In this document: positions 2,561-34,663 of the stretch, one piece after another | Numbering within the stretch: position 1 is the first letter of the stretch | Layout: every line of letters begins with the position of its first letter | Source: Polytrichum commune | Lineage: Eukaryota; Streptophyta; Polytrichopsida; Polytrichales; Polytrichaceae | Length of the DNA: 64,000 bases | NCBI GenBank assembly: GCA_950295325.1 | Contig: OX485803.1 | Coordinates: 48,623,554 to 48,687,553, forward strand | Direction: 5' to 3' | Made by a program: the position numbers and the translations under genes | Notes under the pieces: generated by a model | What the model was told of the DNA's origin: nothing | Databases searched by the model: none | The model's input: only the letters and a program-made list of their open reading frames with translations

Positions 2561-3012
2561 CCCGATTGATCCGAATGATCACTGGGTCAGACTACAGTTA
2601 TATATGTGCCGATAAGCGGTGATCTATATGCGAAAGTGCATTCAGAAACTAGAAGAGTATCAGTGAAAGTGTCATGACAAACCTCCATCTAAATCTATGT
2701 TCTCGATAATTGCATCAAAACAGATCCGATGAAAGTTTCTGATGGTAATGGGCAATTGCCTTTTGTGTTGGTATTTTTATGTGCACCATGTTTTCACACT
2801 GCCTTGTTAAAGAGAGAACCAGAGTGGAACCCACCAGAATGGGAAAGCAAATCTACACGAGTTCCACTCCACGTGTATCCTAGGGGTCTCGGTGACCTTA
2901 CATGAATTATTTGGCGAAGAAATAATAAAAATTGCTTTATCTCAAAAGAGAGCGGGTGTAGAGATGAACCGCAATTCCTTCATGTTGATTACATTGCGAT
3001 CATTTATATTCT

Positions 3013-3110
3013 GTTCGGTGCACATCCTGACAAGAAGTTGACCTCCTGTCAACGCGGTTGAGAAGGGAGGACATGCCCCCAAAGTCAATCTGCAAATTGG
3101 AGTGGATCGT
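3013..3110 (+). promoter_or_regulatory. W-box inverted-pair module upstream of GRP1
   Basis: TTGACCTCCTGTCAA at 3038-3052 is two W-box cores (TTGAC) facing each other 5 bp apart. A third core follows in the paralogues (TTGAC) but here reads TTGAG. AAGTCAATC lies downstream. The block is conserved upstream of GRP2, GRP4 and GRP5 at the same distance from TATA. W-boxes are bound by WRKY transcription factors; regulation here is inferred. Confidence 0.6.
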
Positions 3111-3221
3111 ACCGTTCGATGATTTGGAGGAGCTGCAGCTCCGAAGCTAATCAATTGCCTTTGTGGCTCCGAAGGTGATCGATCGGTGAACGTGCATGCC
3201 TGGAGAGGTAGTGATGTGCAC

Positions 3222-3228
3222 TATATAA
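3222..3228 (+). promoter_or_regulatory. TATA box of GRP1
   Basis: TATATAA in the context GCACTATATAAGC, 127 bp upstream of the start codon and 184 bp downstream of the W-box pair. The same element is present at the same place in GRP4 and GRP5, and as TATAAAA in GRP2. Confidence 0.75.
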
Positions 3229-3348
3229 GCTCAGGGAACTCTGCCTTCTGCTTCATCCAAACAGCACCATCGACCTGGCTGCTCTTCACTGGCTCCGCAC
3301 TTCTGCCCAGAACTGAATCAACTCCCAGCTACCAATTCGACAATCTCG

Positions 3349-3993
3349 ATGCGAAGGTCCCTCAATGTGCCCGTCGGGGCACTCTCGCTACTGCTGCTTG
3401 CGCTCTTGGTTTCGGAGGCCCTCGTGTTGCCCACCATGGCCAGGACCCTTGTAGAGAAGAAATGGTCGGAAGCTGCCGAGGTAAGACTTTGAGGTTTCAG
3501 TCTATGCATTGTTTACTGTTGAATTGGGCTGAATCGATGTGGTCAGCTGAGTAATCCCAGCTGATCAAAGAGGAAGTGTGTATGACATTATTGAGTTTAT
3601 CAGTGCCCGGATTAATATTCGCAATAATTAAGTTGATCATTCATTAATCTGTACTCACGGGTTAGCCTTGATGTTCCTCCTCAGGAAAATGGTGATGTTG
3701 CAAACTCACAGAAATACGGAAGCATGAAGGACTATGGGCGCGGTGGATATAATCCTGGCAATGGCAATGGTGGTTATAACAATCCAGGATATGGCAACAA
3801 TCCTGGCTACGGTTCAGGTCGTGGGCAAGGCCAAGGCCAGAGAAGAGGTGGAAGAGGCGGAGGCAGCAGTGGTGGTGGTGGTGGCGGTGGCGGTGGCGGT
3901 GGCGGTGGGGGTGGAGGTGGAGGTGGAGGTGGAGGAGGAGGAGGAGGAGGTGGAGGCGGTGGTGGAGGAGGTGGTGGAGGCGGCGGCAACTAG
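3349..3993 (+). CDS. Secreted glycine-rich protein (GRP1), two exons
   Basis: Exon 1 is 3349-3480 and exon 2 is 3685-3993, joined by a phase-0 GT-AG intron (donor GTAAGA, acceptor CCTCAG), giving 146 aa. Residues 1-31 are a signal peptide: a basic start (MRRS), a leucine-rich core, and likely cleavage after PTMA. A charged stretch (VEKKWSEAAE) and a polar linker follow, then Tyr-Gly-Asn-Pro repeats (NNPGYG), a basic GRGQGQGQRR segment, and a tail of nearly pure glycine ending in Asn. The architecture resembles plant class I GRPs, thought to be structural or signalling proteins of the cell wall; there is no cysteine-rich domain and no RNA-binding domain. The ATG is the first in the inferred transcript and is conserved in all four close paralogues. 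The function is inferred from family features only. Confidence 0.82.
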
Positions 3994-4001
3994 AATTTCC
4001 A

Positions 4002-4021
4002 ATGTAAGCTTCTTCTTACAT
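4002..4021 (+). terminator. Conserved hairpin in the GRP1 3' UTR
   Basis: ATGTAAG and CTTACAT form a perfect 7-bp stem with a 6-nt loop, starting 9 nt after the stop codon. A 20-nt hairpin of the same spacing is present after GRP2, GRP4 and GRP5. It may be part of the 3'-end processing signal (UGUAA) or an RNA structure; the role is a guess. Confidence 0.4.
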
Positions 4022-7000
4022 AATTTGAAAATAAAAGGTTGAGATTGTTGATCATCAACTTTGCATTTGCAATCAATATCGTTCTCCAGCTACTTCAAGA
4101 TGGGATTTATGGTACGCATGATGAGATATATGAAGAGATGGAAGAATCAGAAGTGAGCTTGAGACTCCCAATGTAGGATCAGGATAATCAAGTATGGATT
4201 TCTTGCGTAATCGATGTTCGCTCTACCCAGGCAACTTCAAATATGCAATAACAGTTTGTATTCCTGGAGTCTGATATGGTTCTCAATCTATCTGGGCATG
4301 CATGAACATACAGGTTCTTCAGGAGGGGTCACTTACCACAATAAATCGTAGCAGCTACACGAAGAACAGCTCCGCTTCGTCTCATTCGATGCCATATCAT
4401 GGAGTCACATGTCTGGCCAAAGCACTGTCCAATTTTAGTTGGTGAGCTACTGTAATTGTGGGGACCCTGAGGGTTGATGTCGACTTGGGCTGTGAGAATA
4501 ATCAAAAGTTGACGCATTGTAGAGTAAGACGGGTGAAGAGGACTAGACTCAACGTAGACGTTGTAGAATGCAACATCATAATTATTTCAGTTCACCGAGC
4601 TGGGTGACATGTAACTGGATACCATTGCAAATGAAATACGTTTGAGTTTGATTGTTACATGCAAAAGTAATCTGAAACCATACTTTTCCAAAATTCATTT
4701 AATTCGGTGAGAAGTGTGTCCATCATAATCTCAATATCACAACCTCATTGACTCTGCTTGCAAGCTTAGCATGTTCGACTCATGAGTTGGAGATAAATTA
4801 TATGATGTGAACCGGAGGTTGGCGGGAATGAGAGACGCTTCGATCAATTCATGAGCTGGAAGTTCTGTTGTGTTGATTTGATTAGTTGCTTTCAATGTAT
4901 TTGGTCGCTTGTTCAGATCTAGGACCTATTTAGTAGTTGTGGCTTTCGAAATTGCATACATCTTTGCAATGTTGCATTAGAGTAGACTAATCATAGTACC
5001 CAATACATGCTTCTGTGCATCAACAATATTGGCATGGGATAAAGTAGATATGATGAAAGCATACTCGATTTCATGTCAGCACATTGTATCTCACAAGTTG
5101 ACTGCCAACTGAAGCACACAATTCTCTGTTGAACTAAAGGAGCTCGCAACGGTCTCCAATGACATTCATCATCTGGTTTTATTGACAAGTACAAAGTGAG
5201 CACAACACTGATCAGTTGGGGGTTAGAGTGGTGGAGAGTGGCAGATTGTCAATCTTGCCCAACCAGTTTGGTCTTCATTAGATCACTACCTACACCGCGA
5301 CATTGTTAAATAATGGGTGCAGAAATAATGTGTTGAGAAACACCCGTGTGTCATATAACCGTGAATCTAGTGGGACTAGGACAGGTGCCAAGTTGGATGG
5401 AATGAATAGTTTAACAGCAAATTTAAAGTCAACTGCAATTTCCTTTCGCAGATCACAAGCACCCATGAATCAGGTATTAGGAGAATCGAAACATCAGTAA
5501 TTGAACACCACAAGCATGTCCTGACATGAAGATTTGAAGATTTTTTAGGGTCAATGAAACTTTGGTTCAGCAGACACAAGCAGATAAATTTTGGTGGACC
5601 ACAACCTAGACTGTAGTCCTCAGCAGGTCCAAATTTACCTAAGTATAGTAAAATACAAACATGTCATAAATCAGTGATGCACAGGGAAAGGTGGACATGG
5701 CACATAGGTGATGAGCATAATAACACTAATGCGTTTTGACTGCGTTAATGTCAACTTCTTGAGCACAATAATGTCACAAAGTTGACAAACGAATATCACA
5801 TTAGATTCACGGGATTTTAGTAGTGTCAATTGTTGTGATTGTGTCAAGATTTGGTTCCAAATGTCATCTGTTGAGTGATAGAAAACGGTTCAAATTTCTC
5901 ACACAAAATCAATGTGACCTCTCCTGTCTCTAGACGTGGTACATTAGCAGTGAGACCTTTGGAGGTCTACTAAGGGTGAGCTCATCCTTTGTAGGACGTA
6001 ATGAATGTGTAGAAATGAGAAATATGTGGATATCAAGTATCAATAAGGGAGATGGGTCTTAAGTGGCTCATTTTCTTCATCAGACCCCTACATTTGATTG
6101 GTATGTGGTTCAATGAGGATCAAAGAGCAATCTATATTCAAAAGTGAACATAATTAGAAGGACTTATGTAATATCCAATTAAGAAATCAACAAACATGCA
6201 CTTTTGATAAGCATAACTAAATCAGAAGAAGTTCAATTTTCAATTTGATTTTTGCAAATGTTTCATCATAGATTTGCTAATGCAACACGAAATTTGTTGT
6301 GTAAATCTAATCGGTCGAAGTCAGAGAAGATACAAATAGGACCCACATACCTTAGACTTACAAACACGTGGATAAGATTCGCTTCCCCACTTGTAATTTG
6401 CATAATGGCACTAAAATGGTTCTTTCAACTTTTTTGCAAAATCAAGCAATAATTGAGCGGAGGCCAGACTTGGTGTGTGTCATATAGCATAGAGTGTTAT
6501 GGTACAATACTTTCAGTGCCAAAAGGAAATCTCCAGATGGGATTCAGCAAGATCTTGACCAATGTGGAGACGACACATGGCAAATCTTATTCAAGTATTA
6601 ATCAATTTGTGTCAAACTAGACAACTCCCTCCAATAGTATCATTTTGTTGTAGCATGTCAAGACAAGAAGTCCGCACTCGTGTGAATGCGCTTGACATCA
6701 AATTTATTTCATTATCAATCTCAACATTTGCTACTAAATTGATTGACGAGATTACAATACTTTGTTGCTATTATCAGCACATTGAACTAGCTTTTGGAGG
6801 TGCAAATTGTGCACCCATTTTGTAGTGCTTGTGGTGGTGTTAGGGATAGTTTACACCAAACTTTACCTAGTTCTAGAAAGATGAAGACAAAATTGTTAGG
6901 GCTGGAAAATCTTGTGCACTTATATCAGTTCATCCCTAAACTTTAATTGATAGTAGTTGAACTCTAAACCCTAAACAAATTACTCTTAGCAAAATCCCCA

Positions 7001-7436
7001 TTTATGCAACACGACCATCTCAAAACCCTTAATAAGTTATGTTGCATCCACAGAGATCCAACAACGATGAAGATTCATGCTGATAGTATTCAACAAATGC
7101 CTTTGTGTTTAAATCTTTATGTACGTCGTGTCTTCACACAGACTTATTAAAGAGAGAACCAGGACGAAACCCACTAGAATGGTAAAGTAGAACTTTATGT
7201 GCATCCATGTGCATTCAGAACGATGTGTTCCACCACATGCATCCTAGCGAACTACCCCTCGCTCTATTTCGGGTCTCCGTGGCATAACATGATATTTTGC
7301 CATGAATTTTTTTTCCTTTATCTCAAAAGGAGGAGGAGGAAGAAAGTAACGACAAAAGAGAAAGCTCAAGAAGAAAATGCCGCTGTAGGGATGATCCACA
7401 ATTGCTTCATGTTGATTACGTAGCGATCATTTGTAT
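4022..7436. other. GRP1-GRP2 spacer, no gene seen
   Basis: The spacer is non-coding array sequence, nearly identical to 25724-29808 apart from the insertion there. The 3' flank of GRP1 (GTAATTGTGGGGACCCTGAG near 4450) is recognisably related to that of GRP2 (near 8890), showing that the two units are themselves old duplicates. The site at 5215-5222 (GTTGGGGG) is the empty site of the copy-2 insertion. Open frames are short and lack recognisable domains. Confidence 0.6.
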
Positions 7437-7438
7437 TC

Positions 7439-7540
7439 TGTTCGGTGCACATCCTGACAAGAAGTTGACCTCCTGTCAACGCGGTTGACAAGGGAGGACA
7501 TGCCCCCAAAGTCAATCTGCAAGTTGGAATGGATCGTACC
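7439..7540 (+). promoter_or_regulatory. W-box inverted-pair module upstream of GRP2
   Basis: TTGACCTCCTGTCAA at 7465-7479 and a third core TTGAC at 7485-7489, followed by AAGTCAATC. The pair starts 184 bp upstream of the TATA box, exactly as in GRP1, GRP4 and GRP5. Confidence 0.65.
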
Positions 7541-7648
7541 ATTCGATGATGAGAAGAAGCTGCAGCTCAAAAGCTAATCAATTGCCTTTGTGGCTCCGAA
7601 GGTGGTCGGTCGGTGGACGTGCATGCCTGGAGAGGTAGTGATGCGCAC

Positions 7649-7655
7649 TATAAAA
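7649..7655 (+). promoter_or_regulatory. TATA box of GRP2
   Basis: TATAAAA in the context GCACTATAAAAGG, 126 bp upstream of the start codon, replacing the TATATAA of the paralogues. Confidence 0.75.
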
Positions 7656-7774
7656 GGTGAGGGGACTCGGCCTTCTCCTTCATCCAACAGCACCGTCGAC
7701 CTGGCCGCTCTTCACTGGCTCCGCACTTGTGCACAGAACTGAATCGGCTCGCAGCTACCAATTCGACAATCTCG

Positions 7775-8440
7775 ATGGGAAGATCCTTCAAGGTGCCCGT
7801 GGCGGCACTCTCGGTAGTGCTACTTGTGCTGCTGGTTTCGGAGGCCCTCGTGTTGCCCACCATGGCCAGGAATCTTGTGGAGAAGAAACTGTCGGAAGCT
7901 GCTGAGGTATGCCTTTGAGTTTACGCTCTACATATATATTAGACTATTGTCGATATTGGCTGCAATAGTGTGGTCAGCTGAGTTCTACCAGCTGATCAAA
8001 GAGGAAGTGTGTATAACAATATGGAGTTCATCTATCCGTGCCCGAGACCAATGCTCGGATTGAAAACCATCCATTAAATCTGTACTCATAAGTGTTTGAT
8101 GTTTTCTCCTCAGAAAAATGGTGACGTTGCAAACTCACAGAAATACGGAAGCATGAAGGATTATGGGCGTGGTGGATATAATCCTGGCAACGGTGATGGT
8201 GGTTACAACAACCCTGGTTATGGCAACAATCCAGGATATGGCAATAATCCTGGATACGGCAACAATCCTGGTTATGGTTCAGGTCGTGGGCAAGGCCAAG
8301 GCCAGCGAAGAGGTGGGGGAGGAGGCGGAGGTGGAGGAGGAGGCGGCGGCGGTGGCGGCGGTGGTGGCGGTGGAGGTGGAGGTGGAGGTGGTGGTGGTGG
8401 TGGAGGTGGAGGTGGAGGTGGAGGTGGAGGCGGCAACTAG
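7775..8440 (+). CDS. Secreted glycine-rich protein (GRP2), two exons
   Basis: Exon 1 is 7775-7906 and exon 2 is 8114-8440, with a phase-0 intron (donor GTATGC, acceptor CCTCAG), giving 152 aa. The signal peptide (about residues 1-31) has a Val/Leu core and ends in PTMA. The linker starts KNGDVANSQ. The Tyr repeat region is longer than in GRP1, with four PGYG units in a row spaced by Asn-Asn, then GRGQGQGQRR and a long glycine tract ending in Asn. Exon 1 differs from GRP1 by about ten residues, mostly conservative and mainly in the signal peptide. Likely cell-wall localised. It is the middle unit of the first array copy, about 3.8 kb after GRP1, in the same direction. Confidence 0.82.
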
Positions 8441-8448
8441 GCATTCCA

Positions 8449-8468
8449 ATGTAAAATTCTTCTTACAT
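8449..8468 (+). terminator. Conserved hairpin in the GRP2 3' UTR
   Basis: ATGTAA and TTACAT pair across an 8-nt loop, 9 nt after the stop codon. This is the same position and total length as in GRP1, although the stem is one pair shorter. Confidence 0.4.
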
Positions 8469-10527
8469 ACTATGAGAATGTCATGTGAAAGGTTGTTGAT
8501 GCATGATGAGAAAAGAGTCTTTGGAAGTTTCTTAATGTGAATGTCAGGTTCAAAGCTGAAGAAGCTCAGAAAAGAGGAGCACTCTTGATCGAAGAGGTCA
8601 GTCAAGTATTGAAATCTTGCATGATCGATCTGCACTCCGATCCAGTCCAGTCTGCAGCTTCAAGTTTGTCTCGTGGAATCCATGGAATGTGATATTGTGC
8701 TCATCTGTGGGCATACATGAACATACAGGTTCGAGAGGAGGACTACATACAGTAGCTAATCCGAGTTACAATATGAAGAACTGATCCGCTACGTACGTCA
8801 ACTCTTTCCATGGCATTCATGGAGTTACAACTCCGGCCAAAAAATCAGTGCTTCCTCATTAGGTTGCTTTGTGCCATTGTAGTTGGTCAGCTACTGTAAT
8901 GGAGATGACCCTGAGGTTTTCATTGGCCCAGCTGGTTGATGGACTCAGCTATTGGAAAAATCAGATCTAGATCATGTGCAATGTATAGTAGTACTAAAGA
9001 CAGGTGAGGAGGAATAAACTCACCGTAGACGTTGCAGATTGCATGAGTATCATAAGTATTCCAATCCACGAGGATGTGTAATTGGATGCTATTGGGGACA
9101 AATCCTGGAGTTTGGAAGATATATATACAAGTCTCAAAGCAGATTTTTCAAAATTCAAAGATTTTGGGTGAGACGTGTGTGCATCTTTTGGGGATCTTTT
9201 GTCCCTCCAGCTTATATATACTGGGATCAACTGCTCTGATTCTGAGCACGTGAAGCATGTGGGGCTTTGAAATAATACACAGAATATGCAATCAATTTTG
9301 CGGAATTTGTGAATGTACTCTGTCATGGAGTTGGAAGTGGCTAATGTCCTGCTCTGAGAAATTACTGCATCGCACACACATCCATTACTCAGCTCCATCA
9401 TCACTATAGCCCACAAATTATTTAGCATTCCCTCCAATTCTCGCTCCTTTGCTCATTACCACATTACCACATTGACTAAAATTTTCCCCTAAACGGTATA
9501 TTTAGGGTTTAGGGATGTGAGCTAGGATGGAACCTGATACTTCATCTGGGATGCCATCACTCTCCATCCTTCTTATGTGTCAAGATATGAACAGCTAGTT
9601 TCTGCAATCCTTTCATACCGAAAAATATATGAGTAGCGTACACTCAGTGCAGACTGAAGCAATTTGAACTCTATAAATCTGCTTGTTAAACATTTCATAC
9701 GCTATACGCTTGAAACAGGATCCACATGGGATCGACTAACATTGTCATGAATTCCAGACACTTGATTACTTTATAATGTTGTGCAATCACGCATTTCCTC
9801 TAGCTCCAAATTATCAAAGCGCAAACGTATTGAAGTCGTCTTTCCATTTCTTCCAATATCAAATAAATTTGACAACGATATGGTTAGGGGGTTACTTCTG
9901 TTTCTCAACTCAGATGGACACCTGTAATTGAGTGGTGAGTGGTTAATAGGTATGGATCTAAGAACAGACATCATAAAGGCATGTGTTTATATGAGATTGG
10001 ACCACGTCCTCAGAACTTCTCAACCATTCTAAGCTCAGTGATTGACAAAACCGAGGGACCTATATGATCATTTTAATAAGATAAGGCTTTGAGAACGATT
10101 AAGATATTCCTACACTAGCTCCGAGAACTATAATGAAAACGGCTACGGGCATGATTTGGGTTTGTTGATCATCTTGCACTGAGCTGCATGTTTGATAACC
10201 TACGAGAAGTGGGTAAAGAGTTAAAAGTATCCGATTGAGACCTGCTTACCATATACCTATATCCCTTCAAGCGGCAATCACAAACATGATAGCATTCCTA
10301 GGTTGGAAATTATAGAAGATTGAGGGTTGAATCACTGACATTCCTTCAGATTCTTCGCACAGCTGGTCTCATCCATCACTGCGCAAGTAGGCTCAACAAT
10401 CATGCCATTAAAGCAGCAGAGTAAGTTAAGCGACGGAGGACTCAAAAAGTCAGAGTCGGTTCGGTGGAGTATCATAATGCCTGCAGAATGAAGGCTTTCT
10501 ACCGTACTCGGTCGCCATGGCCAATCA
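8469..10527. other. GRP2-GRP3 spacer, no gene seen
   Basis: The part up to 9474 belongs to the recent duplication; the rest is unique to the first copy. Around 9500 there is a short TTTAGGG-type motif. Open frames on either strand (the longest about 147 codons at 8994-9437, minus) show no family I recognise and are not kept intact in the near-identical copy 2, which argues against their being genes. Confidence 0.55.
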
Positions 10528-10530
10528 CTT

Positions 10531-10718
10531 GAATCCCCTGTCAACGCGCTCGCTGGGTACTACACTTTCCAAGGAAGTCAATCAAATCGCAGCGCTTGAT
10601 GTGCCCTCCAGAACAATTTGGCTACGCCGGATCAATTGGCATGCACCCCTTGCCCTTTACTCTCACTAACAAAGTTGGTCGGCGCGTGTATGCCAACACT
10701 TGGTTGGGGAGTATACAG
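10531..10718 (+). promoter_or_regulatory. Degenerate W-box module and TATA-like site of GRP3
   Basis: CCTGTCAACGCG (10537-10548) matches the right half of the W-box pair of the other units, and AAGTCAATC follows near 10576. The left TTGAC is lost. GTATACAG at 10711-10718 lies about 171 bp after GTCAA, close to the 174 bp from GTCAA to TATA in GRP1, so it is probably the degenerated TATA box. Confidence 0.4.
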
Positions 10719-10805
10719 TGTGACCATGTGTGCTCTTCCCACCATCAGCTGAATTTGCATCCACCCAGCTGCAGTAGCAGTGCCTTGCTCTCTAGCTTCG
10801 CCACC

Positions 10806-11450
10806 ATGGCTGCATTCTTCAAGCCCATGGGGCTTCTCTCGCTCCTCCTTGTAGCCTTACTGCTTGCTCAAGTTCTTGTCTCACCCGCCCTTGCGCGGCC
10901 CCTGATTGCAAGGAGGCAGCTGCTGGATACTCCTGCTGAGGTGAGTTCATCCAAGTCACCTCGTGTCAGTTGGTCATGGTAACTATCCACCCGCTTTCTA
11001 GTTGTGGTTGGAACATTAAATCATGTGATTCTTAAACCTGGATATGCAATGGAAGAATTTGAAGGAATGAGCTGGTCTACTTTGGTGTCATGCTACAAAC
11101 AGTGGTTTATGCTGTTTTTGTGCAACTCGTCTATAACTACGTTTCTCACAATCGATCTTGCATTGTCTTGTGCTCAGGAAAACAGTGACGTTGCAAGCTC
11201 ACACACGAGCTCACAAAAATTCGGAACCATGAAGGACTATGGCGGTGGTTACAACCCGGGATACGGTGGTGGTAACAACCCTGGATATGGTGGTGGGAAC
11301 AACCCAACATATGGCGATGGAAACAATTCCGGTTATGGTACTGGCAATGGGGAAGGGCAGGGCCAAAGGCAAGGGCCAAGAAGAGGGGGTGGGGGTGCAG
11401 GTGGAGGTGGAGGTGGAGGTGGAGAAGGTGGTGGTGGTGGAGGCAATTGA
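10806..11450 (+). CDS. Secreted glycine-rich protein (GRP3), diverged, two exons
   Basis: Exon 1 is 10806-10940 and exon 2 is 11178-11450, with a phase-0 intron (GTGAGT ... GCTCAG), giving 135 aa. The start sits in a strong plant context (CCACCATGG). The signal peptide is about 1-30, cut after SPALA, followed by RPLIARRQLL and the linker ENSDVASSHTSSQ. The repeat region uses GGGNNPGYGGG and single-substitution variants (NPTYGDG, NNSGYG), then EGQGQRQGPRR and a short glycine tail broken by Ala and Glu. Exon structure, linker and motif order show common ancestry with GRP1/2, but the sequence is much more diverged and the poly-glycine tract shorter. A relic of a close relative of its 3' end lies at 31823-31960. 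Confidence 0.8.
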
Positions 11451-11779
11451 CTTGGCTCAAAGCAACAGAAACATTTCATTTGAATTCAACATAAAATACC
11501 CCTCGCTCATCGACTCTTCCAACCTCAAGATATTTGACTTTAAGCATTGGAAAGAGAGATGATGTCAACTGTGGATTGGTGTGATAGAGAGACGCTTGAC
11601 CCAACTCATGAGTTGGAAGTCGAGTTGTGTTGATTAGTTTTTTCTATAGTATTTGGTTGTTGATTCTAGGACATAGATAATGGTTGCTAATTTCCAAACT
11701 TGCGTGTACACATATGCAATGTTGCATGGGAGTCTACTACAAATAGTGCATGTATGATATGTATGATATGTATGAATTG

Positions 11780-12541
11780 TCATGATGTTGCCCAAATTTT
11801 ACCCAAGTTCTTGATATTGAATTCCAAAGATCAACACACAATTTCATAGCCAACAGATTTAGTCATGAGTGTTACTCTTCGCCTCACAACCTAATATGCC
11901 ATGCTTCCTAAATTATCTAAAGAATCCGTATTGCCCTCAACCTCAATCCTACTGCAGCTACTTTGTGATTACTCCTTGATTAATATAAAAAAGAGTAAAG
12001 GAATTGTGTGGGACTCTTGTGAACACTTTTTATAGAATTCTTCCAGACACATGTATTCTCCAAATATCTACCATCATGAGAACTATTTTAATTTTTTTGT
12101 GAGACTAAAGTACGAATTAAATTGAACGATCACCCCATGATCACAAGTCAGACCAAACTTATGCTTTGATAAGTGGTGATCTATATGTCAACTGAGTGCA
12201 TGCAGAAATTAGGGCATATTATCTTTTAATTAAAGAGTCAACACGAACCTCTAGCTAAATCTATGTTAATATGTTGCATCAAAATAAATCCGATAACGTG
12301 TGTTGATGGGAATCAACAAGACCCTTTGCGTTTGAATCTTTAATTACATAACTCCACACCCATAACTTGCAAAAGCATGGAATCCACCAAAATGGAAAAG
12401 CACAATAACAAGTAGCGATGATATGTATTATGCTCGGGTGCACATCATGACAAGAAGTTGACCTCCTGTCAACACGGTTGACACAGGATGATATGTTCCC
12501 ATAGTCAATGCGCAAATTGAAGTGGATTGTACCATTTGATG
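11780..12541 (+). pseudogene. Decayed GRP unit: promoter remnant without a gene
   Basis: 11780-12540 aligns with 33116-34310, the region upstream of the exon-1 pseudogene at 34530. The W-box pair is intact at 12458-12472 with a third core at 12478-12482, but homology stops near 12541 where the dispersed repeat begins. TATA, exon 1 and exon 2 are missing. About 900 bp present in the other copy (32200-33110) is absent at the junction near 11780. Confidence 0.6.
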
Positions 12542-12559
12542 GTGCATGGATTGTCTTGA

Positions 12560-13430
12560 GCTCAAGACAATGCTCATGAGCCTTTCCTAGCATGTTCAAG
12601 ATATGCACTAAGATGTAGTAATAGTAATGGGTAGAATCATACTACAATTATCTAAAATCAAAACTTAACTTGATCTTTCAATTTGACATAGACATATTGG
12701 GAACATCACATGAGCCATTTTATGTTTGAAATTCCAACACTGCATTTACCAATACAATGGCAATTAGGCATTACTAAGATGACTTCATACATATGTATAT
12801 GAAGACATTGTGAAAGCCATTAGTTGAAAATGAGGCACATTTTGTGTTGGAATATCCCCTATATAAGTCCATAAGAGATAGGTTTGCATTATTATTTGAG
12901 AATGTAATCTTATGGAGGCTCAAGTCTTTCTTTCAATTACATGACCAAGTCGGCATTCGTCTCTATCTCATGGAGGCTACCACACTCCGCCACTCTAGAG
13001 AATTAGCTAATTTGGAAACCATCACGATGTACTTTCAATTCCATTCGGGGTGATTTCATTAGTTAATTCCATGTGAACAATTCCATGTGTTTTATAAACA
13101 TTCAGAATAAAAAAGTGATCATGGCTCATATTGTGTTTCCATTACATCAATATTTCAGATTGAAAGAGCAGGTCAGCTCCAATACAGGACACCTCAAGCT
13201 ATATCATTGCCATATGATTTCCAAATAGAGATTTTCATTTTCATAATCGAAGGCTCATGAGGCAATTTGAACATCTTTAAATTCAGATGGTGAGGAGCAG
13301 GTCCGCCCTTCTTGAATGCCTTGATCACATCACTGCCTGGTTACACATGCAAATAGTCTGCACTTTATTCCTGCTTCTGCCTGTTCACTCAAACAATATG
13401 GGCCATGGACACACAAATCACTTGAATCTT
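12560..13430 (-). repeat. Dispersed repeat, inverted copy (left arm)
   Basis: This is the reverse complement of sequence at 14498-15180 (inner part) and of 35780-36650. Matching landmarks are the 69-codon frame at 12844 and its counterpart on the minus strand at 14682-15065, both with MLEYPLYKS and DRFA. The conserved frame suggests the repeat once carried coding sequence, but I recognise no protein. Confidence 0.75.
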
Positions 13431-14292: not shown

Positions 14293-14299
14293 TTTACAC

Positions 14300-15180: not shown

Positions 15181-15199
15181 GATAAGAATTCTCTCTCTC

Positions 15200-22960: not shown

Positions 22961-22962
22961 AT

Positions 22963-23986: not shown

Positions 23987-24738
23987 AGTGACATTTGTGG
24001 CATATTGAAATAGACAAGTAGACAATTTCTAAATTTTGTCCACCTAAATTTGGAGAGCTGTGGTCTACTTAACAATACTATAATCTACCTTACAAAAGGA
24101 AAAGTTTAGTGTTGATAGTGCCCTTGATGAGGATGTCATCACTTCTTGATTCTTCTTATAGTTTTTGGAATCCTCACATACCCACACATATATATATAAT
24201 CAGCTCACCTAGTATTCAGTTAGTTCAAATGCAGTTTAAACCAATGCTTCAAATGGGCTAATTCAAATGGGGCTCCCTGTGACAACCCGATTGATTCGAA
24301 TTATCACTGGGTCAGACTGAACTTATATATGTGCCGATAAGCAGTGATCTATATGCGAAAGTGCATTCAGAAACTAGAAGAATATCAGTGAAAGTGTCAT
24401 GACAAACCTCCATCTAAACCTATGTTATCGTTAATTGCATCAAAACAGATCCGATGAAAGTGTGCTGATGGTAATGGGCAAAAGCCTTTTGTGTTGGTAC
24501 TTATATGTGCACCATGTCTTCACACTGCCTTGTTAAAGAGAGAACCAGAGTGGAACCCACCAGAATGGGAAAGCAGATTTACACGAGTTCCACTCCACGT
24601 GTATCCCAGGGGTCTCGGTGACCTTACATGAATTATTTGGCGGAGAAATAATAAAAATTCCTTCATCTCAAAAGAGAGCGGGTGTAGGGATGAACCGCAA
24701 TTCCTTCATGTTGATTACATTGCGATCATTTATATTCT

Positions 24739-24954
24739 GTTCGGTGCACATCCTGACAAGAAGTTGACCTCCTGTCAACGCGGTTGACAAGGGAGGACAT
24801 GCCCCCAAAGTCAATGTGCAAATTGGACTGGATCGTACCGTTCGATGATTTGGAGGAGCTGCAGCTCCGAAGCTAATCAATTGCCTTTGTGGCTCCGAAG
24901 GTGATCGATCGGTGAACGTGCATGCCTGGAGAGGTAGTGATGTGCACTATATAA
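24739..24954 (+). promoter_or_regulatory. W-box pair and TATA box of GRP4
   Basis: TTGACCTCCTGTCAA lies at 24764-24778, a third TTGAC at 24784-24788, and TATATAA at 24948-24954, 184 bp after the start of the pair. The third W-box core is intact here, unlike in GRP1. Confidence 0.68.
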
Positions 24955-25074
24955 GCTCGGGGGACTCTGCCTTCTCCTTCATTCAAACAGCACCATCGAC
25001 CTGGCTGCTCTTCACTGGCTCCGCACTTCTGCCCAGAACTGAATCAACTCCCAGCTACCAATTCGACAATCTCG

Positions 25075-25602
25075 ATGCGAAGGTCCCTCAATGTGCCCGT
25101 CGGGGCACTCTCGCTACTGCTGCTTGCGCTCTTGGTTTCGGAGGCCCTCGTGTTGCCCACCATGGCCAGGACCCTTGTAGAGAAGAAATGGTCGGAAGCC
25201 GCCGAGGTAAGACTTTGAGGTTTCAGTCTATGCATTGTTTACTGTTGAATTGGGCTGCATCGATGTGGTCAGCTGAGTAATCCCAGCTGATCAAAGAGGA
25301 AGTGTGTATGACATTATTGAGTTTATCGGTGCTCAGATTAATATTCGCAATAATTAAGTTGATCATTCATTAATCTGTACTCGCGGGTTAGCCTTGATGT
25401 TCCTCCTCAGGAAAATGGTGATGTTGCAAACTCACAGAAATACGGAAGCATGAAGGACTATGGGCGCGGTGGATATAATCCTGGCAATGGCAATGGTGGT
25501 TATAACAATCCAGGATATGGCAACAATCCTGGCTACGGTTCAGGTCGTGGGCAAGGCCAAGGCCAGAGAAGAGGTGGAGGAGGCGGAGGAGGAGGAGGCA
25601 GC

Positions 25603-25634
<32 letters not shown>

Positions 25635-25695
25635 TGGAGGAGGAGGAGGAGGAGGTGGTGGTGGTGGAGGAGGAGGTGGAGGCGGCGGCAACTAG
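25075..25695 (+). CDS. Secreted glycine-rich protein (GRP4), near-copy of GRP1
   Basis: Exon 1 is 25075-25206 and exon 2 is 25411-25695, with a phase-0 GT-AG intron, giving 138 aa. The exon-1 protein is identical to that of GRP1; the nucleotide differences are silent (for example GCT to GCC in the SEAAE stretch). The Tyr-Gly-Asn-Pro region is also the same. The poly-glycine tract is eight residues shorter overall and has a different serine position. Promoter and 3' UTR hairpin are conserved. Probably functional and redundant with GRP1, arising with the 7-kb duplication. Role inferred as for GRP1. Confidence 0.82.
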
Positions 25696-25703
25696 AATTT
25701 CCA

Positions 25704-25723
25704 ATGTAAGCTTCTTCTTACAT
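25704..25723 (+). terminator. Conserved hairpin in the GRP4 3' UTR
   Basis: ATGTAAG / CTTACAT, 7-bp stem and 6-nt loop, identical to GRP1. Confidence 0.4.
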
Positions 25724-26923
25724 AATTTGAAAATAAAAGGTTGAGATTGTTGATCATCAACTTTGCATTTGCAATCAATATCGTTCTCCAGCTACTTCAA
25801 GATGGGATTTATGGTACGCATGATGAGATATATGAAGAGATGGAAGAATCAGAAGTGAGCTTGAGACTGCCAATGTAGGATCAGGATAATCAAGTATGGA
25901 TTTCTTGCGTAATCGATGTTCGCTCTACCCAGTCAGCTTCAAATATGCAGTAACAGTTCGTATTCATGGAGTCTGATATGGTTCTAAATCTATCTGGGCA
26001 TGCATGAACATGCAGGTTCTTCAGGAGGGGTCACTTACCACAATAAATCGTAGCAGCTACACGAAGAACAGCTCCGCTTCGTCTCATTCGATGCCAAACA
26101 ACTGTCTGGCCAAAGCACTGTCCAAATTTAGTTGGTCAACTACTGTAATTGTGGGGACCCTGAGGGTTGATGTCGACTTGGGCTGTGAGAATAATCAAAA
26201 GTTGACGCATTGTAGAGTAAGACGGGTGAAGAGGACTAGACTCAACGTAAACGTTGTAGAATGCAACATCATAATTATTTCAGTTCACCGAGCTGGGTGA
26301 CATGTAACTGGATACCATTGCAAATGAAATACGTTTGAGTTTGATCGTTACATGCAAAAGTAATCTGAAACCATACTTTTCCAAAATTCATTTAATTCGG
26401 TGAGAAGTGTGTCCATCATAAGCTCAATATCACAACCTAGGTCATTGACTCTGCTTGCAAGCTTAGCATGTTTGAATCATGAGTTGGAGATAAATCATAT
26501 GATGTGAACCGGAGGTTGGCGGGAATGAGAGACGCTTCGATCAATTCATGAGCTGGAAGTTCTGTTGTGTTGATTTGGTTAGTTGCTTTCATCAAATGTA
26601 TTTGGTCGCTTGTTCAGATCTAGGACCTATTTAGTAGTTGGGGCTTTCGAAATCGCATACATCTTTGCAATGTTGCATTAGAGTAGACTAATCATAGTAC
26701 CCAATACATGCTTCTGTGCATCAACGATATTGACATGGGATAAAGTAGATATGATGAAAGCATACTCGATTTCATGTCAGCACATTGTATCTCACAAGTT
26801 GACTGCCAACTGAAGCACACAAGTCTTTGTTGAACTAAAGAAGCTCGCAACAGTCTCCAATGACATTCATCATCTGGTTTTATTGACAAGTACAAAGTGA
26901 GCACAACACTGATCAGTTGGGGG

Positions 26924-27583
26924 CTATGTTCGGGGAAAACTGACGACTAGTTCATTATCAGCCGATGGATTTCCCCTCACGGCCGGTCCAAATTTCCAAC
27001 CATCGGATGGCAATCCGACTGTAATTTCAATTCTCCGGCAATTAGCCGATAGACCAGAAAATGTCCCGGAAATGTAGCCGATTCTTCTTGTGAGTTACTG
27101 GATTTTAGCCGGAAGCATCCATAGCGCTATTTGTCTGGGGCATGTGATGATGCACTTGAGGAAGTACCCTAAACCTTGAACTTTTTGAATTATGCAACCT
27201 TTCCATGACCAAATCCAATTGCTTGTATGGAGAATTGGGGGACCCTTGACCTTCAAGCGGTGAAGGCATTGCTAGGTTCAATTCCTGCCAAGGATATTAA
27301 CTCTTCAAATTTAAAGTTTTGAACATGCCTTTCTTTTCACTTATTCAAGATTTTGTACTAAGAAATGATTTCTAATAACCTTTCATACATTCTCTAAACA
27401 ATTAGTGCCGATATGAATTCCATTTAATCGGATATTGGGCAATGAAAATATGAAAATATAGGCAATTGGCCGATTGATTTAACAAAAGACCGGCTCTTGC
27501 CGATGTAAATTGGAAAAAATCCAACCCTTCGTAGCAACTACCGGCAATTAGCCACTAAGGCTTCAAAAACTTCCCGAACTCTG
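26924..27583. mobile_element. hAT-like insertion with preserved empty site
   Basis: Termini CTATGTTCGGGGAA (left) and CAGAGTTCGGGAA (right, inverted) resemble those of the element at 22963-23986. The duplication GTTGGGGG occurs at 26916-26923 and 27584-27591, and exactly one copy is at the orthologous place in copy 1 (5215-5222). Repeated GCCGAT motifs lie inside. No coding capacity. It inserted after the 7-kb duplication, or in an allele that gave rise to copy 2. Confidence 0.88.
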
Positions 27584-29808
27584 GTTGGGGGTTAGAGTGG
27601 TGGAGAGTGGCAGATTGTCAATCTTGCCCAACCAGTTTGGTCTTCTTTACATCGCTACCTACACCGCGACATTGTTAAATGATGGGTGCAGAAATAATGT
27701 GTTGAGAAACACCCATGTGTCATATAACTGTGAATCTAGTGTGACTAGGACAGGTGCCAAGTTGGATGGAATGAATGGTTTAACAGCAAATTTAAAGTTC
27801 ACTGCAATTTCCTTTCGCAGATCACAAGCACCCATGAATCAGGTATTAGGAGAATCGAAACATCAGTAATTGAACACCACAAGCATGTCCTGACATGAAG
27901 ATTTTTTAGGGTCAATGAAACTTTGGTTCAGCAGACACAAGCAGATAAATTTTGGTGGACCACTACCTAGACTGTAGTCCTCAGCAGGTCCAAACCTAAG
28001 TATAGTAAAATACAAACATGTCATAAATCAGTGATGCACAGGGAAAGGTGGACATGGCACATAGGTGATGAGCATAATAACACTAATGCGTTTTGACTGC
28101 GTTAATGTCAACTTCTTGAGCACAATAATGTCACAAAGTTGACAAACGAATATCACATCAGATTCACGGGATTTTAGTAGTGTCAATTGTTGTGATTGTG
28201 TCAAGATTTGGTTCCAAATGTCATCTGTTGAGTGATAGAAAACGGTTCAAATTTCTCACACCAAATCAATGTGACATCCCTTGTCTCTAGACGTGGTACA
28301 TTAGCAGTGAGACCCTTGGAGGTCTACTTAGGGTGAGCTCATCCTTTGTAGGACGTAATGAATGTGTAGAAATGAGAAATATGTGGATATCAAGTATCAA
28401 TAAGGTAGATGGGTCTTAAGTGGCTCATTTTCTTCATCAGACCCCTACATTTGATTGGTATGTGGTTCAGTGAGGATCAAAGAGCAATCTATATTCAAAA
28501 GTGAACACAATTAGAAGCATTTATTTAATATCCAATTAAAAAATCAACAAACATGCACTTTTGATAAGCATAACGAAATAAGAAGAAGTTCAATTTTCAA
28601 TTTGATTTTTGCAAATGTTTCATCATAGATTTGCTAATGCAACACAAAATTTGTTGTGTAAATCTAATCGGTAGAAGTCAGAGAAGATTTAAAAATGAAC
28701 CAAATAGCACCCACATACCTTAGACTTACAAACACGTGGATAAGATTTGCTTCCCTACTTGTAATTTGCATAATGGCACTAAAATGGTTCTTTCAACTTT
28801 CTTGTGAAATGGAGTAATGATTGGGCGGAGGCCAGACTTGGTGTGGGTCATATAGCATAGAGTGTTATGGTACAATACTTTCAGTGCCAAAAGGAAATCT
28901 CCACATGGGATTCACCAGGATCTTGACCAATGTGGAGACGACACATGGCAAATCTTATTCAAAAAGCAATCAATTTGTGTCAAACTAGACAACACCCTAC
29001 AATAGTATCATTTTGTTGTAGCATGTCAAGACAAGAAGTCTGCACTCGTGTGAATGCGCTTGACATCAAATTTATTTCATTATCAATCTCAACATTTGCT
29101 ACTAAATTGATTGACGAGATTACAATACTTTGTTGCTATTATCAGCACATTGAACTAGCTTTTGGAGGTGCAAATTGTGCACCCATTTTGTAATGCTTGT
29201 GGTGGTGTTAGGCATAGTTTACCCCAAACTTTACCTAGTTCTAGAAAGATGAAGACAAAATTGTTAGGGCTGGAAAATCTTGTGCACTTATATCAGTTCA
29301 TCCCTAAACCTTAATTGATAGTAGTTGAACTCTAAACCCTCCACAAATTACTCTTAGCAAAATCCCCATTTATGCAACGCGACCATCACAAAACCCTTAA
29401 TAAGTTATGTTGCATCCACAAAGATCCAACAAAGATGAAGATTCATGCCGATAGTATTCAACAAATGCCTTTGTGTTTAAATCTTTATGTACGTCGTGCC
29501 TTCACACAGACTTATTAAAGAGAGAACCAGGACGAAACCCACTAGAATGGTAAAGTAGAACTTTACGTGCATCCATGTGCATTCAGAACGATGTGTTCCA
29601 CCACATGCATCCTAGCGAACTACCCCTCGTTCTTTTTCGGGTCTTGGTGGCTTAACATGATATTTAGCCATGAATTTTTTTTTCCTTTATCTCAAAAGGA
29701 GGAGGAGGAAGAAAGTAACGACAAAAGAGAAAGCTCAAGAAGAAAATGCCGCTGTAGGGATGATCCACAATTGCTTCATGTTGATTACGTAGCGATCATT
29801 TGTATTCT

Positions 29809-30024
29809 GTTCGGTGCACATCCTGACAAGAAGTTGACCTCCTGTCAACGCGGTTGACAAGGGAGGACATGCCCCCAAAGTCAATCTGCAAGTTGGAGTG
29901 GATCGTACCATTCGATGATGAGAAGGAGCTGCAGCTCAAAAGCTAATCAATTGCCTTTGTGGCTCCGAAGGTGGTCGGTCGGTGGACGTGGATGCCTGGA
30001 GAGGTAGTGATGTGCACTATATAA
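29809..30024 (+). promoter_or_regulatory. W-box pair and TATA box of GRP5
   Basis: TTGACCTCCTGTCAA at 29834-29848, third TTGAC at 29854-29858, TATATAA at 30018-30024, 184 bp after the start of the pair. Confidence 0.68.
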
Positions 30025-30143
30025 GGTGAGGGGACTCGGCCTTCTCCTTCATCTAACAGCACCATCGACCTGGCCGCTCTTCACTGGCTCCGCACTTGTG
30101 CACAGAACTGAATCGGCTCGCAGCTACCAATTCGACAATCTCG

Positions 30144-30800
30144 ATGGGAAGATCCTTCAAGGTGCCCGTGGCGGCACTCTCGGTAGTGCTACTTGTGCTG
30201 CTGGTTTCGGAGGCCCTCGTGTTGCCCACCATGGCCAGGAATCTTGTGGAGAAGAAACTGTCGGAATCTGCCGAGGTATGCCTTTGAGTTTACGCTCTAC
30301 ATATATTTTAAACTATTGTCGATATTGGCTGCATTAGTGTGGTCAGCTGAGTTCTACCAGCTAATCAAAGAGAAAGTGTGTATAACAATATTGAGTTCAT
30401 CTATCCGTGCCCGAGACCAATGCTTGGATTGAAAACCATCCATAAAATCTGTACTCATAAGTGTTTGATGTTTTCTCCTCAGAAAAATGGTGACGTTGCG
30501 AACTCACAGAAATACGGAAGCATGAAGGATTATGGGCGTGGTGGATATAATCCTGGCAACGGTGATGGTGGTTACAACAACCCTGGTTATGGCAACAATC
30601 CAGGATATGGCAATAATCCTGGATACGGCAACAATCCTGGTTATGGTTCAGGTCGTGGGCAAGGCCAAGGCCAGCGAAGAGGTGGGGGAGGAGGCGGAGG
30701 TGGAGGAGGAGGCGGCGGCGGTGGTGGCGGTGGAGGTGGTGGAGGTGGAGGTGGTGGTGGTGGTGGTGGAGGGGGAGGTGGAGGTGGAGGCGGCAACTAG
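30144..30800 (+). CDS. Secreted glycine-rich protein (GRP5), near-copy of GRP2
   Basis: Exon 1 is 30144-30275 and exon 2 is 30483-30800, with a phase-0 intron (GTATGC ... CCTCAG), giving 149 aa. Exon 1 differs from GRP2 by one residue (SESAE for SEAAE). The four PGYG units and the GRGQGQGQRR stretch are unchanged, and the glycine tract is three residues shorter. The signal peptide is about 1-31 with cleavage after PTMA. The promoter block and 3' UTR hairpin are intact, so the gene is probably expressed. Downstream, the array breaks into a GRP3-type fragment about 1 kb away. Confidence 0.82.
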
Positions 30801-30808
30801 GCATTCTA

Positions 30809-30828
30809 ATGTAAAATTCTTCTTACAT
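30809..30828 (+). terminator. Conserved hairpin in the GRP5 3' UTR
   Basis: ATGTAA / TTACAT with an 8-nt loop, 9 nt after the stop codon, as in GRP2. Confidence 0.4.
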
Positions 30829-31822
30829 ACTATGAGAATGTCATGTGAAGGTTGTTGATGCATGATGAGAAAGGAGTCTTTGGAAGTTTCTTAATGTGAA
30901 TGTGAGGTTCAAAGCTGAAGAATCTCAGAAAAGAGGAGCACTCTTGATCGAAGAGGTCAGTCAAGTATTGAAATCTTGCATGATCGATCTGCACTCCGAT
31001 CCAGTCCAGTCTGCAGCTTCAAGTTTGTATCGTGGAATCCATAAAATGTGATATTGCGCTGATCTGTGGGCATGCATGAACATACAGGTTCGAGAGGAGG
31101 ACTACATACAGTAGCTAATCCGAGTTACAATATGAAGAACTGATCCACTACGTACGTCAACTCTTTCTATGGCATTCATGGAGTTACAACTCCGGCCAAA
31201 AAATCAGTGCTTCCTCATTAGGTTGCTTTGTGCCATTGTAGTTGGTCAGCTACTGTAATGGCGATGACCCTGAGGTTCTCATTGGCCCAGCTGGTTGATG
31301 GACTCAGCTATTGGAAAAATCAGATCTAGATCATGTGCATTGTATAGTAGTACTAAAGACAGGTGAGGAGGAATAAACTCACCGTAGACGTTGCAGATTG
31401 CATGAGTATCATAAGTATTCCAATCCACGAGGATGTGTAATTGGATGCTATTGGGGACAAATCCTGGAGTTTGGAAGATATATATACAAGTCTCTAAGCA
31501 GATTTTTCAGAATTCAAAGATTTTCGGTGAGACTTGTGTGCATCTTTTGGGGATCTTTTGTCCCTGCAGCTTATATATACTGGGATCAACTGTCTGATTC
31601 TGAGCACGCGAAGCATGTGGGGCTTGAACTAATACACAGAATATGCAATCAATTTTGCGGCATTTGTGAATGCACTCTGTAATGGAGTTTGAAGTGGCTA
31701 ATGTCCTGCTCTGAGAAATTACTGCATCACACACACATCCATTACTCAGCTCCATCATCACTATATCCCACAAATTATGTAGCATTCCCTCCTATTCTCG
31801 CTCCTTTGCTCATTACCACATT

Positions 31823-31960
31823 GAGGTGGAGGTGGAGGTGGAAGTGGTGGTGGTGGCGGTGGCGGAGGCAATTGACTTGACCCAAAGCAACCGAAACATT
31901 TCATTTGAATTCAACATAACAAACCCCTTGCTTATCGATTCTTGCAACCTTAAGATGTTT
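31823..31960 (+). pseudogene. Truncated 3' end of a GRP3-type gene
   Basis: A glycine-codon run (GGTGGAGGTGG...) ending GGCAATTGA at 31875 is followed by a 3' flank matching that of GRP3 (AACATTTCATTTGAATTCAA). The signal peptide, intron and Tyr repeats are absent because the 7-kb duplication joins directly to the glycine tract. Identity to GRP3 continues to about 32180 but is clearly lower than between the two 7-kb copies, so this fragment derives from an older GRP3 paralogue. Confidence 0.75.
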
Positions 31961-34200
31961 GACTTAAAGAGCTTGAAAGAGAGATGATATCAATTGTTGA
32001 TTGGTGTGATAGAGAGACACTTGACCCAACTCAGGAATTGGAAGTGGAGCTGTGTTGATTGGTTTCCTCTATAGTATTTTGGTTGCTGATTCTAGGACAT
32101 AGATAGTGGTTGCTAATTTCCAAAATTGCGTGTACACGTATGCAATGGTGCATGGAAGTCTACTACAAATAGTGCATGTACGATATATAAGATGTGCATG
32201 AGCACTAGTGTCGAATTGAAATTTAAAAGGAGGCATGTTGATGAAAGCATACTCCATTATATGGCAATGCATAGTAATTCACATTTTGAATGTCAACTGA
32301 GGCTTAAAATTTGTTATTGAACGAGGTTAGGGGCTGGCAAGAGTCTCTGATGACCTTCATCGTCTGGTTTTCATGACATTCGAGTTCACACTGCAGAGTG
32401 ACCAAGACTCAGCTAGTAATTGAGGACGAGATTGCTAGAGCTAGAACTTGGACATATTGTATATCAACCATTTTGGACTTCATTACATCACTAGCTACAT
32501 GAAGACATTGTGTCTAGAAATGTAACTGCTAGTTGATAGCCCCTGTCACAATGTATTTGAAAAGGTCCGTATGTGATATACATGTGCCAAGTTGGATCTC
32601 ATTGATGATTCAACTGAAAATTTGAAGCAATTTCAGTTCAAAAAACATGAATAACCATGAATTAGATGCAAGGATCAACGCAGATTCACTAGTTCAAGCA
32701 TCCAAGCTAGGGGTTCAGACATACAAATTTGCACCAGTGAATAGAAGAAAGAAATAGGACCAGATAAGGGTCAACGACAGTCTGGTACAACACTTAGAGT
32801 TAGTACTAAAAGTAAATTTCCATGTGGGGTTTAGTAGGATTTTGTAAATGACAAACGTGGAAAATCTCTTTCAATACATTATTATTTTGTGTCAAACTAG
32901 ACAACGCTCTACAGAAGACTCATTATTTTTCTTCATCATGACGATACAAGAAGTTGGAACTCATGTCAACACTCTTGACATGAAATTCAATTTGATCTTG
33001 GCCGTTGCTATTGAATCCCTGTGCAAGATTACAACACTTTGGAAACACTTTGTTGTAATCTACAATTTGAAGTACTTGGTGGTCATCTATTGTAAGTGCA
33101 TATTGTGTAGCGCTTGTCATGATGTTGCTCAAATTTAACCAAAGTTCTTGATATTGAATTCCAGAGATCAACACACAATTTCATAGCCAACATATTCAGT
33201 TGTGAGTGTTACTCGTAGACTCACAACCTATGGAGTGCTTCCTAAATTATCTAAACAATCAAAATGCCCTCAACCTCAATCCTACTAAAGCTACTTTGAG
33301 AATTATTCCTTGATTATTATAACAAGAGTAAAGGAATTGTGTGGGATTCTTGTAAACACTTACTATAAAAATTCTTCCAGACACATGTATTCTCCAAATG
33401 TCTACCATCATGACAACTATTTTAGTTTTTTGTGAGACTAAACTACAGATCAAAATGAATGATCACCCCATGATCACAAAGTTAGTCCAAACTTATGCTT
33501 CAATAAATGGTGATCTATACATCAACTTAGTGCATGTAAAAGTTATGGTTAATCAATTCGTTAAAGAGTCATCACTATTGGAGTCAGTGTGTTTCACATT
33601 GGTTACTTTGTTCAAGATTAGTCACTTGATTAGTCAAAGTAGTTAGATTGATTAGTAATAGAAGTATCCTTGTTCACATCACTGGCAATGAAGAGGAATA
33701 ATAAGACGAGCAACAAGCTCAACGTAGATATATTGTTTGCAAGGCACTTGTGAGTGTAAGTGTATGTAGCTTACAGAAAGCTAATCAAGATTGATCATGT
33801 AAATGAGTGCTTGAGTTACTCACTCACAAGTAATAAAACATATTGTACAAAGTGTGTCTCTGCATGAGTGGCTTGTGCATCATCATGCGTGTGTGTGTTG
33901 AGTTATCAACGAGTGAAGAAATGGGTACAGATAGGGACCGTGAGTAAATTATGTATCAATGTGTAGAATGTTTCACCTCTGAGTGACTGTTTGAAGATTG
34001 ATGAAAATGTGTTGTCTATAAGAATCACGAACCTCCAGCTAAATCTAGGTTAATATGTCATATCAAAATAAATCCAACAAACGTGTGTTGATGGGAATCA
34101 ACAAGAGCCTTTGCATTTGGATCTTTATTTACATATCTCCACACCTATAACTTGTAAAAGAGTGGAAAAGCACAACAACAAGTAGCGATGATATGTATTT
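31961..34200. other. Old array flank, no gene seen
   Basis: 31961-32180 matches the GRP3 3' flank (11460-11770). About 32780-33130 matches the upstream regions of GRP2/GRP5 at low identity. 33116-34200 matches 11780-12430. This order restores a full old unit that is internally deleted in the first copy. Open frames of up to about 96 codons are not conserved between copies. Confidence 0.5.
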
Positions 34201-34202
34201 TG

Positions 34203-34410
34203 CTCGGTGCACATCCTGACAAGAAGTTGACCTCCTGTCAACGCGGTTGACACGGGAAGACATGTCTCCAAAGTCAATCTGCAAGTTGAAGTGGAACATA
34301 CCATTCGATGAGGAGGAGGAGCTGCAGCTCAAAAGCTAAAACTCATAAAGCTCAAAAGCTCAACTGCCCTTGTGTGCATGCCTGGAGAGGTAGTGTGTGC
34401 ACTATACAAG
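34203..34410 (+). promoter_or_regulatory. W-box pair and mutated TATA of the exon-1 pseudogene
   Basis: TTGACCTCCTGTCAA is intact at 34227-34241 with a following TTGAC, but the TATA box reads TATACAA (34403-34409) in the otherwise conserved context. The block has kept its W-boxes although the gene below is dead. Confidence 0.55.
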
Positions 34411-34529
34411 CTCGGGGGATTCTGCATTCTCTTTCATCCAAATAGCACCATCGACCTGGCTGGTCTCCACTGGCTCCGCAGTTCTGCACAAAATTGAATC
34501 AGCTCCCAGCTACTAATTCCACAATCTCG

Positions 34530-34663
34530 ATGGGATTATCCTTCAATGTGCCTGGGGGCGCACTGTCGTTACTGCTGCTTGTGCTCCTTGGTTTCGGAGG
34601 CCCTTGTGTTGCCCACCATGGCCAGGACCCTCGTAGATAAAGAAACTGTCGGAAGTTGCCGAT
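34530..34663 (+). pseudogene. GRP exon-1 pseudogene
   Basis: This is homologous to exon 1 of GRP1/GRP2 (start MGLSFNVPGGALSLLLLVLL). A one-base insertion after the hydrophobic core shifts the frame (GFGG instead of VSEA) and leads to a stop at 34638-34640. A second extra base lies near GATAAAG, and the exon-end codon plus donor reads GATGTAATA instead of GAGGTAAGA. No exon 2 is found in the following 1 kb. Not expected to give a GRP. Confidence 0.85.

Follow-up and report, generated by a model that had tools for sequence, protein, structure and literature searches.

In a 64,000-nucleotide window of the Polytrichum commune genome (contig OX485803.1, positions 48,623,554 to 48,687,553, forward strand) we find a tandem array of two-exon genes for glycine-rich proteins (GRPs). 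The window lies on C1 (77.9 Mb) of an assembly totaling 407.8 Mb. The array probably represents a locally expanded birth-and-death cluster of secreted, class-I-type cell wall GRP genes, a reading to which we assign a probability of about three in four. Intact copies of different ages and dead copies lie together in one cluster, and the predicted proteins carry a high-glycine region after a putative signal peptide.

Members, ages and dead copies of the array

Our gene models confirm that the tract at 2.6-34.7 kb contains five intact GRP genes, GRP1 to GRP5 (Table 1), all in forward orientation and each with two exons separated by a phase-0 GT-AG intron, as an earlier sequence-only reading of this DNA had proposed. 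That reading let the array end at 34663, which no longer holds, since a more distant member, GRP6, is located further right in the window, and three additional genes (U1, U2 and U3) lie outside it. From U1 to GRP6, at least nine intact genes are arranged on one strand within 74.4 kb. GRP6 shares the layout of the other GRP genes but has a longer intron, and the U3 exon 1 is shorter and lacks an RPLVEKKLTE-like stretch. Three extra copies of the GRP6 exon-2 start, together with its upstream sequence, are present in the GRP6 intron (47567-48376), as would be expected from a duplication of exon 2 within the gene. The 20 kb that follow the window on its right gave no match to exon 1 or to the linker and contain only one short glycine-rich stretch, on the opposite strand. 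A long glycine-rich reading frame containing HDNP repeats is located about 10 kb to the left of U1, in C1:48584001-48594000 (positions 3343-3870, reverse strand); it shows no match to the GRP family exon 1 or linker.

Five single-protein queries of the genome located, outside the array, one relative at 22.34 Mb on C3 and a single further place at 66.3 Mb on C1, which holds two distant glycine-rich stretches. As U3 escaped these queries and GRP6 was detected only when its own exon 1 served as the query, more diverged GRP members may exist. A genome search with the Pfam GRP model returned three weak matches (on C7, C2 and C3), none of them above the cut-off. An inverted relic of the non-coding flank of the array is found about 5 Mb away (C1:53506001-53515000). 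It contains no GRP exon in its 9 kb, and its promoter relic ends at about the same place as the promoter-only relic12 of the window.

We compared the copies by their synonymous divergence (dS), a check suggested by the sequence-only reading. The estimates, which are based on few sites, fall into three separate tiers: 0.014-0.028 for GRP1/GRP4 and 0.025-0.028 for GRP2/GRP5; 0.28-0.36 for GRP1/GRP2 (0.24-0.38 over four pairings of the two types); and 1.2 to saturation for GRP3 versus the others, with one value undefined. Duplication in stages, with at least three age tiers, is thus confirmed. The earlier grouping of GRP3 with GRP1 and GRP2 as old units has to be given up, because GRP3 is much older than these two genes. 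The copies may have arisen by unequal exchange or by other recombination between units.

The youngest tier corresponds to a block of 6.9 kb that was copied in one event, and the proposed ~7-kb repeat is real (96.2% identity over 6,922 aligned bases, edges included). In windows of 300 bases (n = 23), identity is mostly 0.957-0.997, with three windows at 0.928-0.953 and a first window at 0.797, which begins ahead of the repeat. At the right junction, identity steps from 97.1% (968/997) on the left side to 88.3% (333/377) on the right side (Fisher p = 2e-9), indicating that the recent block borders on an older tail of GRP3-like type. The predicted truncated tail at this junction is genuine: it has retained a poly-glycine end and a stop codon, with its front missing. 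Given this step in identity, we set aside a scenario in which the tail was created by one deletion in the second copy after a single large duplication.

The right block copy alone contains an insertion of 657 bases, flanked by an 8-bp target duplication (GTTGGGGG) and carrying terminal inverted repeats that are imperfect, as judged by eye. The empty site is present in the left copy, and the insertion postdates the block duplication. We take it to resemble a hAT-type miniature inverted-repeat transposable element. Another insertion, ~1 kb long, is found at ~22966-23990; it has terminal repeats, its 8-bp flanks are nearly identical, and its ends resemble those of the 657-base insertion.

Other dead copies are also found in the window. 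In the exon-1 pseudogene, the frame of the start codon departs from the family sequence part-way and reaches a stop codon, with the remaining match located in another frame; a linker search of the window revealed no exon 2 downstream. The frame shift and the missing exon 2 bear out its assignment as a pseudogene. Promoter-only relics are likewise present as proposed, one of them clear (relic12) and two decayed.

Upstream elements and W-boxes

Several intact GRP copies share an unusual promoter element. In GRP1, this module, which the sequence-only reading had missed, lies ~220-350 bases ahead of the start codon and contains the inverted cores GTTGAC-CTCCT-GTCAAC; the GTTGACCTCCTGTCAAC palindrome is also found at positions 7464, 12457, 24763, 29833 and 34226. 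A search of the 408-Mb genome with a 22-base module core, allowing up to two mismatches, returned six places, all of them in the array (GRP1, GRP2, GRP4, GRP5, the pseudogene and relic12), with none for a reversed control. A more decayed form of the module is found in the inverted relic at C1:53506001-53515000. Upstream of GRP3 lies a different footprint, AAGTCAATCAAATCGCAGC, which U1 carries exactly and U2 with a single mismatch. It has no further genome match at up to one mismatch (control, 0), and a weaker form is present upstream of U3. A bacterial promoter scan, which is not designed for plants, served as a lead only through the hairpin it reported.

Both the module and the AAGTCAATCAAATCGCAGC footprint contain W-box cores of the TTGAC type, an element linked to WRKY factors. 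The 400 bases upstream of GRP1, GRP3, GRP6, U1, U2 and U3 together contain 8 W-boxes versus 2.8 expected (Poisson p = 0.008), and at least one is present in 5 of the 6 genes (p = 0.03). For this count, one of GRP1, GRP2, GRP4 and GRP5 was retained and the C3 gene was left out; the background was the window plus seven loci, which includes the array and does not represent promoters. WRKY-type factors may, with less confidence, act on the array genes via the conserved W-box module. In the sections of PMC8401727 concerned with WRKY genes, none changed at 8 and 24 h in the moss Physcomitrium infected with Colletotrichum, whereas several were raised by Botrytis, as cited there. Given these responses, the array genes may or may not be under defence control.

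Between GRP1 and GRP2, the module differs at 6 of 128 positions and the intron at 56 of 196 (p = 2e-8). Such a low promoter divergence could also be generated by gene conversion between units rather than by selection on a regulatory element. Paralogous clusters often convert, and the promoter divergence K of 0.084 is far below the intron value of 0.365. However, identity downstream of the module declines stepwise across 100-base windows (0.97, 0.89, 0.91, 0.86, 0.86, 0.76 and 0.68) instead of forming a single sharp tract. GRP3, U1 and U2, whose promoters give only short BLAST matches, still carry fragments of the element (AAGTCAATC..., TGTCAACGCG or similar), and the dead copies relic12 and pseudogene show about equal divergence in module (85.9% identity) and flank (87.6%). 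We consider conversion an improbable, though still serious, source of the pattern.

Protein layout, constraint and class

The GRP proteins have a signal-peptide-like start, a linker (DVASSQKYGSMKDYG-like) and a glycine-rich tail, and most members also contain a short charged stretch (RPLVEKKLTE-like) and a tyrosine-containing, GGYNPG-like repeat. The putative signal peptides show a hydrophobic core and an ALA/TMA-like cleavage site, as judged by eye in the gene models. In the six window genes, the sequence following exon 1 is 43-66% glycine; poly-glycine and GGYNPG-like units predominate there over plain GGX, with pure poly-glycine runs of up to 41 residues.

The coding part ahead of the poly-glycine tail is under constraint in the recent pairs, where 4 of 624 bases differ (1/294 and 3/330), as compared with 154 of 4,848 in other block DNA (p = 6e-5). 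For GRP1/GRP2, dN/dS is 0.054/0.356 over 98 codons and 0.107/0.28 for exon 1 alone. The tails are encoded by mixed GGN codons, and we accordingly dropped the idea that they represent a mere microsatellite. In a tail codon alignment that we made ourselves, and that is uncertain in such repeats, the differences at codon positions 1/2/3 amount to 0/0/3 for GRP2/GRP5, 2/0/12 for GRP1/GRP4 and 1/0/13 for GRP1/GRP2. Tail length varies while glycine is retained, and the changes fall almost wholly on third codon positions. Thus the quick change that the sequence-only reading saw in the poly-glycine part applies to its length and silent positions, while the residues are hardly altered.

Class I plant GRPs are defined by a signal peptide with a glycine-rich GGX region behind it, and class I and II GRPs are active cell wall components, as outlined in the relevant part of PMC5852109. 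The array proteins would be secreted and incorporated into the cell wall or extracellular matrix, and tyrosine together with the glycine repeats would favor cross-linking and packing there. We scanned five of the nine array genes and the C3 gene with Pfam, using GRP2 without most of its tail. At E-values up to 1, this returned only the GRP family and one weak DUF748 match, and no RNA-binding or oleosin domain.

Several results weigh against the assignment as a conserved, co-regulated class-I-type cluster. The cut-off of the Pfam GRP family (PF07172, 30 bits) is not reached, the best score being 26.4 for GRP6, followed by 17.7 for GRP2 without most of its tail, and GRP1, GRP3, U1 and the C3 gene gave no match to this family. 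With tails included, 29 of 867 coding bases differ in the recent pairs, no less than in other block DNA. The promoters of these pairs (14/708) evolve more slowly than the rest (154/4,848), but not significantly so (p = 0.10), and no TTGAC[CT] is present in the 400 bases upstream of U3 and of the C3 gene. The small number of sites behind dS, the uncertain tail alignment, the assignment of signal peptides by eye and the possibility of gene conversion count on the same side.

It has also to be considered that the products are not structural wall proteins but secreted peptides with a signaling or antimicrobial role that are released from the conserved N-terminal linker, the poly-glycine being a passive tail. 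Most members indeed have the N-terminal stretch and linker in common, and W-boxes are typical of defence genes. However, glycine identity in the tail is kept at the codon level, and no cysteine pattern is found in the glycine-rich part of the window proteins after exon 1. We regard this peptide function as unlikely and retain the assignment as wall GRPs.

Integrity of the locus and its place among known families

An assembly or haplotype duplication of the 7-kb block is very unlikely: its copies are ~96-97% identical, a level that alleles of some outcrossing plants also show, but the window contains no N, the differences are spread along 6.9 kb, 14.8 kb of DNA holding GRP3 separates the copies, the right copy is joined to older DNA within a GRP tail, where identity drops abruptly, and one copy later took up the 657-base insertion with its target duplication (which by itself would be compatible with an allelic insertion).

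We also rejected a mobile element carrying the GRP genes, as the inverted-repeat DNA at 12.6-13.4 kb looks like separate repeats. Matches to it are present on all of C1 to C7; most involve a single 224-base piece, and longer ones are found on C2, C3 and C4 (40 of 1602 first-look genome candidates scored). This ~224-base dispersed repeat (12822-13045) is perhaps similar to a short interspersed nuclear element. Decayed retrotransposon-like coding stretches, Ty1/copia-like by eye, are found at 15300-19900, and a short palindrome of plant telomere-type repeats (GGGTTTAGGGTTTAGGGAACCCTAAACCC) is located at 34972. Elsewhere in the genome, 18 of 19 rbcS matches cover almost the complete domain, uninterrupted by an intron, and are clustered on C1, C2, C6 and C7. 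The rbcS genes and LEAFY (best solved relative 4bhk, 201 bits; Arabidopsis LEAFY, 181 bits) suggest a land plant without flowers.

Table 1. Features of the GRP array (window positions, or C1 positions where indicated)
Feature	Position	Strand	Description
GRP1 promoter module	3000-3130	+	inverted W-box cores GTTGACCTCCTGTCAAC at 3037
GRP1	3349-3993	+	exon 1 3349-3480, intron 3481-3684, exon 2 3685-3993; 146 aa
GRP2	7775-8440	+	exon 1 7775-7906, exon 2 8114-8440; 152 aa
GRP3 promoter footprint	10575-10593	+	AAGTCAATCAAATCGCAGC
GRP3	10806-11450	+	exon 1 10806-10940, exon 2 11178-11450; 135 aa; oldest of the five in the tract
GRP4	25075-25695	+	exon 1 25075-25206, exon 2 25411-25695; 138 aa; recent GRP1 copy
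GRP5	30144-30800	+	exon 1 30144-30275, exon 2 30483-30800; 149 aa; recent GRP2 copy
GRP6	47193-48664	+	exon 1 47193-47327, exon 2 48323-48664; 158 aa; beyond the tract
U1	C1 48,597,800	+	phase-0 intron; U1 to U3 ~13-26 kb left of the window
U2	C1 48,601,108	+	phase-0 intron
U3	C1 48,609,846	+	phase-0 intron
Recent block, left copy	2559-9465	+	GRP1 and GRP2
Recent block, right copy	24284-31822	+	GRP4 and GRP5
657-base insertion	26927-27583		right block copy only
Truncated tail	~31824-31875	+	end of a GRP3-like gene
Exon-1 pseudogene	~34530-34663	+	shifted frame; full promoter module in front
relic12	12412-12544	+	promoter-only, clear
Older upstream-flank relic	within 21303-22086	+	decayed promoter module
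Older upstream-flank relic	within 37051-37587	+	decayed promoter module

We compared the array to other reported families. Like class I plant GRPs, its proteins have a very glycine-rich region, which follows a signal peptide in that class (PMC5852109, in its description of the class) and a putative one here. The array differs by its poly-glycine runs, its GGYNPG-like repeats, its own linker and its scores below the Pfam GRP cut-off. The Arabidopsis GRP-oleosin (T-oleosin) cluster on chromosome 5 is, like the array, a local cluster of paralogous glycine-rich proteins, and the title of a paper cited in PMC5217362 (Fiebig 2004) names rapid evolution by repeat expansion. Its members, however, contain a lipid-binding motif of oleosin-like type and are produced in the tapetum, according to the portions of PMC7410184 and PMC5217362 on this cluster. 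The array genes, in contrast, have a signal-peptide-like start, and the five of nine genes scanned gave no oleosin match in Pfam. The Medicago LEED..PEED genes form a small family of putatively secreted proteins, restricted in that case to one lineage, with domains of negatively charged residues instead of glycine repeats (PMC4199706, in the part describing the family). The sequence-only reading knew of no description of this array; in the part of the literature covered on GRP clusters, on bryophyte and liverwort GRPs and on birth-and-death evolution we met no account of such an array either, which lends the claim weak support.

Growth by repeated local copying with loss of broken copies is a known mode for such families, and the general surprise is modest because this broader process is well known. 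The locus provides a clean, relatively dated example of how a family of secreted repeat proteins grows and decays, in which promoter remnants outlast the genes. More tentatively, and with the odds against it, the cluster could act as a single regulatory unit for wall proteins. Its W-box elements, inverted in the GRP1/GRP2 type and near-intact nowhere else in the 408-Mb genome, would then drive the copies together, copy number would tune the dose of one wall polymer, and selection would act on promoter elements and tail glycine identity more than on repeat length. The confinement of the promoter elements to this locus makes such co-regulation directly testable.

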